NCBI GenBank assembly: GCA_012519655.1
Contig: JAAYPS010000198.1
Span: 1 to 46,694, forward strand
Reading direction: 5' to 3'
DNA length: 46,694 nucleotides
Source of the DNA: Clostridiaceae bacterium
GTDB lineage: Bacteria; Bacillota; Clostridia; DSM-8532
The notes beneath the pieces were generated by a model. The model was not told where the DNA came from and ran no database searches. It saw only the letters and a list, made by a program, of their open reading frames with translations. Positions 18,969 to 22,292 of the stretch are shown here, piece after piece; positions within the stretch are counted from its first letter, which is position 1, and the number at the start of each line of letters is the position of its first letter. Both the position numbers and the translations under genes were made by a program.

Positions 18969-21044
18969 TTGGATAATGCGAAGTTGAATTCAATACTATA
19001 TTCAAGTATTCAATCTGTTAAACAAGTTGGTACAGCAACAGCTAAAAAACTAAATAAGCTGGGTATAGAAACAATTGGGGATCTTATCACATATTATCCA
19101 AGAGATTATGAGGACAGGAATAAGGAAAAGAAGGTTTTTGAACTGCAAGATGGCGATGAATGCGCTATTATTCTTAGGATTTTGAACGGTGTTACGTTTA
19201 GTAGACCAAGACGAAATTTACGAATATATAAAACCGTTGCAGGAGATGAAAGTGGACAAATTACATTAACTTGGTTTAACCAGGACTATATTAAAGGTAA
19301 GATCTCTAAGGGTAACGAATACGTTTTTTTCGGAAAGGTTAAGAAAATAGGCCCCCATATTGAAATGGTAAACCCAATATATGAAGAAGTTAATTCTGAA
19401 AGAAAAAAAACTACGGGTATCCAACCCATTTATTCTTTAACTGCAGGGATTACTCAAGCCTATCTTAGAATGATACAACGAAATGCTCTTGATATTGTTA
19501 TTGGAAAATTAACAGACATACTACCAAATGAGTTAAGGAAAAAATATTCGTTATCAGAATATAATTTTGCTTTGGAAAACATTCATTTTCCAAAAAATTT
19601 CGAGCAAAAAGAAAAAGCACGTAAAAGGCTTGTTTTTGAAGAATTGTTAATACTGCAGCTTGGACTTTTGCAACTGAAAAACAGCCAAATTGTTGTATCT
19701 GGAATAAAAATGCAGTATAAACCTGCGATAGATAAATTTATATCTCAATTACCCTATCAATTAACAAATGCGCAGCAGAAGGTATTTAAAGAGATTGTAA
19801 ATGATATGACTAGTGAAAACCAGATGAACAGACTCATTCAAGGTGATGTAGGATCGGGGAAAACCATTGTGGCACTAATGGCAATATTACTGACCATACT
19901 CAACGGTTATCAGGCAGTTTTCATGGTGCCTACCGGAATACTTGCAGAACAGCATTATCAAACAATAAAAGTGGCGCTTGAAAGTTATGACGTTGTCATT
20001 GAGTTGTTGACAGGCAGTGTCACAAAAAAGGAGAAAGAAAGGATAAAGCAGGATATAAAAAATAATGAATGTCAGTTGGTAATTGGAACCCATGCCTTGC
20101 TGGAGGAAAATGTAGAATTTGCTAAATTGGGTCTTGTAGTTACAGATGAGCAACATCGATTTGGAGTGAAACAAAGAGCCGTTTTGCCCTCTAAATCCAA
20201 TCCGCATATTATTGTAATGACGGCAACTCCTATTCCAAGAACACTATCACTAATATTGTACGGTGATTTAGATATATCCATAATTGATGAGCTTCCACCC
20301 AACCGTAAACCAATAAAAACATACTCAGTCAATGATTCTATGAGAAACAGGGTGTATCAATTTATTCGCAAGATTGTAAATGAAGGACGCCAGGCTTACA
20401 TAATTTGCCCCTTGGTAGAGGAATCAGAAGAAGTTGAAGCAGAGGCTGCAATGTCTCTTGCCAAAAGGATATCTGAAAACGATTTAAAGGGACTATCAAT
20501 AGGACTTGTCCATGGAAAGATGAAAGCCATAGAAAAAGATCAGGTCATGGCTGGATTTGCAGCAGGTAATATTCAGGTTCTTGTGTCTACAACGGTAGTA
20601 GAAGTGGGAGTAAATGTTCCAAATGCAAGCCTTATGGTTGTTGAAAATGCAGAACGGTTTGGTCTTGCGCAGCTGCATCAATTAAGAGGTAGAGTTGGAA
20701 GAGGAGAGTATCAATCATATTGTATTTTGTTTTGCCAAAGCAAGAGTGAAATAGCAAGAAAACGTATGGAGATAATGACTAAATATAGTGATGGCTTTAT
20801 GATATCTGAAAAAGATATGGAACTTAGAGGACCTGGCGATATATTCGGGACCCGTCAGCATGGTTTACCTGAGTTTAAGATAGCCAATTTATATGAAGAT
20901 ATCGAAATATTAAAAGAGGTACAAAAAACCGCCAGTGATATTGTAAAGCATCAAATGCTTGAGGGCAGGGAAGATTATAATATACTTCAAGAGCATTTAC
21001 TTTCATTATTTGAGGATAAAATGAATGAAGTGGCTTTGAATTAA
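18969..21044 (+). CDS. recG: ATP-dependent DNA helicase RecG
   Basis: A branch-migration helicase that remodels stalled replication forks. The N-terminal wedge/OB domain (about residues 60-160) is followed by two RecA-like domains with Walker A GDVGSGKT (292-299), DEQH box (393-396), MTATPIPRTL, VATTVIEVGV-like STTVVEVGVNVPNA, and QLRGRVGRG with the C-terminal MELRGPGDIFGTRQHG. The length of 691 residues is standard. Translation starts at TTG 18969 behind AAAGGA. An ATG at 18975 is out of frame. Confidence 0.96.
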   Translation: MDNAKLNSILYSSIQSVKQVGTATAKKLNKLGIETIGDLITYYPRDYEDRNKEKKVFELQDGDECAIILRILNGVTFSRPRRNLRIYKTVAGDESGQITLTWFNQDYIKGKISKGNEYVFFGKVKKIGPHIEMVNPIYEEVNSERKKTTGIQPIYSLTAGITQAYLRMIQRNALDIVIGKLTDILPNELRKKYSLSEYNFALENIHFPKNFEQKEKARKRLVFEELLILQLGLLQLKNSQIVVSGIKMQYKPAIDKFISQLPYQLTNAQQKVFKEIVNDMTSENQMNRLIQGDVGSGKTIVALMAILLTILNGYQAVFMVPTGILAEQHYQTIKVALESYDVVIELLTGSVTKKEKERIKQDIKNNECQLVIGTHALLEENVEFAKLGLVVTDEQHRFGVKQRAVLPSKSNPHIIVMTATPIPRTLSLILYGDLDISIIDELPPNRKPIKTYSVNDSMRNRVYQFIRKIVNEGRQAYIICPLVEESEEVEAEAAMSLAKRISENDLKGLSIGLVHGKMKAIEKDQVMAGFAAGNIQVLVSTTVVEVGVNVPNASLMVVENAERFGLAQLHQLRGRVGRGEYQSYCILFCQSKSEIARKRMEIMTKYSDGFMISEKDMELRGPGDIFGTRQHGLPEFKIANLYEDIEILKEVQKTASDIVKHQMLEGREDYNILQEHLLSLFEDKMNEVALN

Positions 21045-21158
21045 ACTATTAAACGTAAAGCACTTTAATTAGTACCTAAGTAAAATCATGCAAAATATGC
21101 TTGGAAAGCAGATTAAAGCAGTATTAGCAATTTAAACATACAAGAGGGGGAATCTGAT

Positions 21159-21719
21159 ATAATAAGGGTTATCGGCGGAACCGCAAGAGGTACAAAGCTA
21201 AAAACTCCTAAGGGGGTCAATACACGTCCGACTGCTGATAGTGTTAAGGAGTCGGTTTTTAATATATTAAATCCAGATATACCGGATAGCATTGTGCTGG
21301 ACTTATTTGCAGGAACGGGAGCATTGGCAATAGAAGCATTAAGCAGAGGCGCTAAACAAGCTTACCTTGTAGAACAAAACAAAAATTGCTGCGCTATAAT
21401 ACGGGACAATCTTAGACATACAAAATTTACTGAAAATAGCTTCGTCTACTGCCAAAAGGCTAGCTCCTTTATTAAGAGTATTATGAAAAAGGGTGTAAAA
21501 TTTGACATAGTTTTTATGGATCCACCCTATTCTAAGAATTTTATACAGGAAACACTTCAACTTTTAGTCGAAAATGGTATAATGAAAAATGAAGGAATTG
21601 TTGTAGTGGAACACCATAAAGAAGATATTATTCCACATAGTTTAGGGACACTTATTAGTAAAAGGGTTGAACATTATGGAGATACTAATGTCACCTTTTT
21701 AGTAAACTATATAGATTAA
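21159..21719 (+). CDS. rsmD: 16S rRNA m2G966 methyltransferase RsmD with ATA start
   Basis: A SAM-dependent methyltransferase acting on 16S rRNA in the small subunit. The frame reads RVIGGTARGTKLKTP, RPTADSVKESVFNIL, LDLFAGTGALAIEALSRGA and the catalytic FMDPPYSK, a complete RsmD of about 185 residues. The expected initiator codon is replaced by ATA: two in-frame ATA codons (21159 and 21162) lie 8 and 11 nt behind AGAGGGGG. No ATG, GTG or TTG occurs in frame between the upstream stop (21114) and GTG 21294, which would delete the whole N-terminal region. coaD follows, as in many Firmicutes. Confidence 0.88.
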   Translation: MIRVIGGTARGTKLKTPKGVNTRPTADSVKESVFNILNPDIPDSIVLDLFAGTGALAIEALSRGAKQAYLVEQNKNCCAIIRDNLRHTKFTENSFVYCQKASSFIKSIMKKGVKFDIVFMDPPYSKNFIQETLQLLVENGIMKNEGIVVVEHHKEDIIPHSLGTLISKRVEHYGDTNVTFLVNYID

Positions 21720-21809: not shown

Positions 21810-22292
21810 TTGAATATATTTGTATATCCGGGAAGTTTTGATCCTGTTACAAACGGGCATTTAGACATTATCGACAGAGCTGCTAAGCTTTGTGATAAGC
21901 TAATTGTGGCTGTTTTAATAAACCGTACCAAAACCCCGGCTTTTACCATAGAAGAGCGCGCTTCATTTATTGAAGAAGTATTGGTTGGAAGGGATAATAT
22001 TGAGGTTATTCCTTTTTCGGGTCTACTTGTAGATTTTATGAAGAAACATAATGCTACAACAGTTGTAAAGGGTTTAAGAGCTGTATCGGATTTTGAGTAC
22101 GAATTTCAAATGGCTCTTCTTAACAAGAAGCTATACCCAAGTATCGAAACTCTTTTTATGATGACCAACGTTGAGTATTCGTACCTTAGTTCCAGTGCGG
22201 TAAGAGAACTTGCAAGTTATGGTGGTAATATAAAGGATTTAGTTCCCGATATAATTATTGATAGGGTTTATGGCAAGTACAAAAACAAATGA
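21810..22292 (+). CDS. coaD: phosphopantetheine adenylyltransferase
   Basis: The fourth step of coenzyme A synthesis: it joins AMP from ATP to 4'-phosphopantetheine. The nucleotidyltransferase motifs [16 protein letters not shown] and [16 protein letters not shown], plus [18 protein letters not shown], identify it. The 160-residue length is normal. TTG 21810 follows GAGAGGAGC at 6 nt. The rsmD-coaD-ylbJ neighbourhood is conserved in spore formers. Confidence 0.96.

Follow-up and report, generated by a model that had tools for sequence, protein, structure and literature searches.

The window, by which we mean the whole analysed stretch of 46,694 nucleotides, is C94, one of the 198 contigs of a draft genome, and it carries rsmD between recG and coaD with the following features.

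18969 to 21044, + strand: recG, TTG start, the upstream neighbour of rsmD
21114 to 21116, + strand: in-frame TAA stop 5' of rsmD, with no ATG, GTG or TTG in frame until 21294
21143 to 21150, + strand: Shine-Dalgarno sequence (SD) AGAGGGGG, spaced 8 nt from ATA 21159 and 11 nt from ATA 21162
21159 to 21161, + strand: codon 0, the AUA at which rsmD is proposed to start; sister genera have ATG here, and 10/10 genomes of the nearest genera ATA, ATC or ATT
21162 to 21164, + strand: ATA (Ile), the second codon, which differs between relatives (ATA, GTA, GTC, ATT, ATC, TTA, CTC) and is an unlikely start
21159 to 21719, + strand: rsmD, 16S rRNA (guanine966-N2)-methyltransferase, 186 aa, catalytic DPPY
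21294 to 21296, + strand: GTG, the first canonical start codon in the rsmD frame, without SD; a start there drops 45 residues including conserved N-terminal motifs
21810 to 22292, + strand: coaD, TTG start, the downstream neighbour of rsmD and a control gene

Between the TAA at 21114 and 21719 the rsmD frame stays open, and its product belongs over its full length to the family of RsmD (YhhF), the 16S rRNA m2G966 methyltransferase. It scores 171.7 bits against TIGR00095 (cut-off 117.5), which meets the membership criterion, and 192 bits against PF03602, matching profile positions 1-181 of 182; the catalytic motif is D121 P122 P123 Y124, and R3, I5 and G7 of the N-terminus are invariant in our alignment (A1). 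The start region reads AAGAGGGGGAATCTGAT-ATA(21159)-ATA(21162)-AGG-GTT-ATC. A preliminary description of this DNA had stated that the frame encodes a full RsmD behind an SD at the right distance, that no ATG, GTG or TTG stands between the stop at 21114 and the GTG at 21294, and that a start at this GTG would cost about 45 conserved residues, and on all of these points our reading agrees. The GTG is codon 45 counted from ATA 21159, and its use is ruled out by the missing SD together with the loss of the conserved N-terminus; no canonical start is able to give the full protein, which is one criterion for a conserved non-canonical AUH start of the infC type, AUH standing for AUA, AUU or AUC. The first canonical codon of recG (18969), of coaD (21810) and of the next gene (22338, 158 aa) is TTG. 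A search for RNA structure at the rsmD start site gave nothing beyond shuffled sequence (z 0.61).

The preliminary description had also placed the initiator at the ATA-ATA pair, with a preference for 21162. An ATA start is upheld, but the comparison favours 21159, since relatives have ATG or AUH at exactly that codon, among them genera g2, g3 and g7 of the same family with ATG, and since the SD lies 7-8 nt upstream of codon 0 at an about constant distance in the g1-g7 relatives. The proposed refuting outcome, an ATG at 21162 on resequencing, thus concerns the wrong codon. Judged by these alignments, rsmD most likely starts at the first ATA (21159), with a predicted product beginning Met-Ile-Arg-Val. 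A start at ATA 21162 is rejected on account of its 11-nt SD spacing and the variability of that codon in relatives, and one at the upstream ATT 21123 or ATA 21138 for the lack of conservation upstream of codon 0. The 3' tail of the 16S rRNA of G001, a genome of the same genus as the window, is GGATCACCTCCTTTCT.

The alignment of rsmD starts in close relatives, which had been proposed as a check, revealed ATA, ATC or ATT at codon 0 in 10/10 readable rsmD genes of g1, g4, g5 and g6, including that of the complete single-contig genome G001, with ATG in g2, g3 and g7. A second clostridial order (that of G170) has an AUH start in 46 of its 56 genomes with rsmD. Within it, family f52 is uniform (13/13) and so is f52 taken together with f64-f76 (36/36), f26 and f61 are mixed, and f77 is canonical; f26 includes the genus of Ruminiclostridium cellobioparum, and the start region of the R. 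cellobioparum locus (L045) is the same as that of G190 and G197. Single AUH cases occur in f16 (ATA) and in f2, whose ATA has a GTG within its SD region, and the rsmD starts of the remaining class sample are canonical (ATG, TTG or GTG). Over the 58 distinct AUH loci, codon 0 is ATT in 36, ATA in 19 and ATC in 3. When 398 genomes of the phylum were searched with a pattern that requires GGAGG, no convincing further AUH rsmD emerged: two of the four matches have a canonical codon beside AUH, one breaks the Arg motif and the one in G352 is not RsmD. Since these matches fail inspection, the trait looks restricted, within the reach of that pattern, to the lineages found.

On this comparative evidence, the AUH start of rsmD is a real, conserved trait of two clostridial orders. 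An error of sequencing or assembly that turned ATG into ATA, or a translation start at GTG 21294, could be invoked because the window belongs to a draft genome in 198 contigs. The same state, however, recurs in about 57 other loci, including those of complete single-contig genomes (G001, G152, G179, G181, G189, G201 and G206), and the GTG has neither an SD nor the conserved N-terminus behind it, so we regard this explanation as hardly credible; for the lineage, an error is refuted by the conservation. In the literature searched we met no previous account of an rsmD with a non-AUG start, and to that extent the conserved AUH start of this gene is undescribed.

Conservation of AUH alone cannot tell a start from an internal isoleucine, because the same codons encode Ile, and translation might begin upstream of a conserved internal Ile at codon 0. 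Some canonical codon does stand in frame upstream in 26-27 of the 58 AUH loci, mostly within or before the SD. In the other 32, the window included, none exists between the upstream stop and codon 0, and there an internal Ile would still need a non-canonical start. The internal position would furthermore put the SD inside the gene, the upstream codons are not conserved, and the sister genera have their ATG exactly there. Conservation of a protein-like kind, with third positions free, sets in at codon 0 to 2; none is seen at codons -5 and beyond. Of 59 AUH-labelled loci (a count that includes L140, excluded from the 58 for an ATG two codons upstream), 46 have an SD spacing of 7-8 nt, and ATG-started rsmD genes peak at 7. 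The missing upstream starts and the SD spacing together argue for codon 0 as the start, and we consider the internal Ile very improbable. A further criterion, an AUH codon conserved in relatives at SD-optimal spacing, is also fulfilled by the window gene. The SD score of a full GGAGG is reached by 97% of AUH loci, against 48% of canonical rsmD genes, or 33% in the same families, figures uncorrected for kinship. The automatic gene caller disagreed or was ambiguous in 5/58 loci (L007, L237, L270, L272 and L283), and in L027, L127 and L130 a GTG lies within the SD region; the AUH status of these eight is less certain.

The evolution of codon 0 was followed on a tree of RsmD proteins whose first two residues had been masked. 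The branch support is modest because RsmD is short, and the root is unknown, so that gain and loss of AUH cannot be distinguished. The state AUH versus canonical requires 8 changes on the tree and the four-state codon label 19, so within AUH the third base must have switched between A, C and T at least 11 times. Transitions between AUH and AUG or GUG occurred in several lineages (f26, f61 and g2/g7/g3), hence the trait is not indispensable. A single third-base change to G would restore AUG, and from this we infer that the AUH start, whose conservation is observed, is an old trait kept by selection.

Homology-free gene calling was applied to 800 kb of the complete congener genome G001, giving 581 genes. 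Strong AUH-start calls without a better canonical start were limited to rsmD, infC and a regulator-like frame at 1156615, the other listed AUH calls having an ATG beside AUH or small margins; rsmD and infC are the two well-supported AUH starts among the 581 genes. The third candidate (contig C1, L303) encodes a regulator-like protein of 230 aa (IKNKWEDVLASSLLFSDIEKEDIGK); its ATA follows a strong SD, and its only upstream canonical codon is an SD-less GTG three codons before the ATA. The infC genes of the window's order have AUU, AUA or AUC behind GGAGGUG in nearly all readable loci, and in the window's own genome (L230) ATC behind GGAGGTG. The neighbour coaD is canonical in 56/56 AUH-rsmD genomes (TTG in 34/56) and AUH in 0/56. 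The gene rsmB, whose product methylates the adjacent C967, starts with ATG in 11/11 readable genomes of the window's order, including the window's own (L346 is left out of this count). AUH starts are thus rare in these genomes, and both clear cases, rsmD and infC, act on the initiating ribosome. Full-length RsmB (>400 bits) is found in g1, g3, g4, g5 and g6 (L346-L375), and g2 and g7, which have ATG rsmD, give only weaker RsmB matches (at most 189 bits, without the N-terminal part) that are probably a paralogue. The coincidence of weak RsmB with ATG rsmD in g2 and g7 would represent at most one or two events and is suggestive only.

The closest known system is infC, which encodes IF3 and is under translational autocontrol from AUU in E. 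coli and many bacteria. Like rsmD, it has a long-conserved AUH start behind a strong SD, and both AUH starts are present in the studied genomes; unlike infC, rsmD encodes an rRNA methyltransferase and not a codon-inspecting factor, so feedback would run via m2G966, and its AUH start is lineage-restricted. Conserved non-canonical starts are also known from ccpN (AUA) and cvfC1 (AUU) of Staphylococcus aureus, pcnB (AUU) of E. coli and sigR (GTC) of Streptomyces. In this group a strong or extended SD precedes a start with reduced expression (PMC13009471, PMC5472188). In S. aureus, ccpN, cvfC1 and citZ reach about 10% of AUG expression from AUU and AUA starts (PMC13009471), and the sigR GTC start is repressed by IF3 (PMC5472188). 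They differ from rsmD in being other genes with other regulatory purposes and in having been tested experimentally. Most sampled clostridial RsmD homologues start at AUG, GUG or UUG, unlike the window gene.

In light of these comparisons, we propose that translation of rsmD begins at AUA 21159 with the normal initiator tRNA and that the strong SD guides it. The position is backed by comparison; that the AUH start would keep RsmD synthesis low is an inference without expression, proteomic or ribosome-profiling data, and so is its putative dependence, as for infC, on the initiation-codon strictness of IF3 and the 30S P site. The preliminary description had suggested a deliberate, infC-like start, and this is supported since AUH is conserved across many families, infC has the same architecture, and the neighbour and partner genes used as controls are canonical; the reduced expression and the regulation remain inferred. 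We hold with good confidence that the start at 21159 is a conserved AUH codon with a strong SD, kept by selection, and that its effect, as inferred, is most likely a low, IF3-dependent supply of RsmD.

Of course, the start could be merely a weak one that is tolerated, giving low constitutive RsmD without any regulation. Few copies are needed of a methyltransferase that acts once per ribosome, for which a poor start behind a strong SD would suffice; the strong SDs could simply compensate, and the tree, with its several changes between AUH and canonical starts, fits as well. What speaks against mere tolerance is the long persistence of the state with repeated exchange of A, C and T and no G in whole clades (10/10 and 36/36 genomes), as well as the use of AUG, UUG or GUG, and not AUH, by nearly all other scanned genes; it stays possible, though not the account we favour. 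An extension of the IF3-dependent explanation is that RsmD autoregulates through its own mark, the AUH start reading the methylation state of G966. Scarcity of RsmD would yield new 30S subunits without m2G966, these would discriminate less strictly against AUA, and more RsmD would be made, an infC-like loop in which the sensed quantity is an rRNA modification rather than an initiation factor. Product feedback is attractive, albeit untested, because the anticodon base on which G966, the RsmD target, stacks is C34, and C34 faces the third codon position, where AUH mismatches. In E. coli, initiation from AUA is reported by Arora et al. (2013) to increase 2-3.6 fold under RsmD deficiency; AUU, the commonest state here, was reportedly not among the codons affected, which weighs against the loop. 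In published work, m2G966 packs beneath anticodon nucleotide 34 (PMC11497404) and absence of RsmB/RsmD relaxes initiator-tRNA selection (PMC7949028).

G966 and its context GAAGCAACGC are present in the 16S rRNA of three AUH genomes (G001, G152 and G189), no 16S rRNA being found in the window's own draft genome, and rsmB, the gene of the adjacent-site enzyme, keeps ATG, both of which are in keeping with such feedback. However, no measurement stands behind the loop, and the same G966 effect would reach any gene translated from an AUH codon, so that specificity would rest on the rarity of such genes. We therefore entertain the feedback only tentatively; since the AUU lineages fit it less well, low expression limited by IF3 is the safer reading for the AUH lineages as a whole.

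Known genes that have kept a non-AUG AUH start through long evolution are very few, and rsmD adds to them. The gene can be expected to be mis-annotated across two clostridial orders, probably including cellulolytic model species. Its product modifies the P-site nucleotide that touches the codon-anticodon pair at the mismatched position, which suggests that start-codon strictness may be sensed via rRNA methylation; this would give m2G966 a testable purpose.
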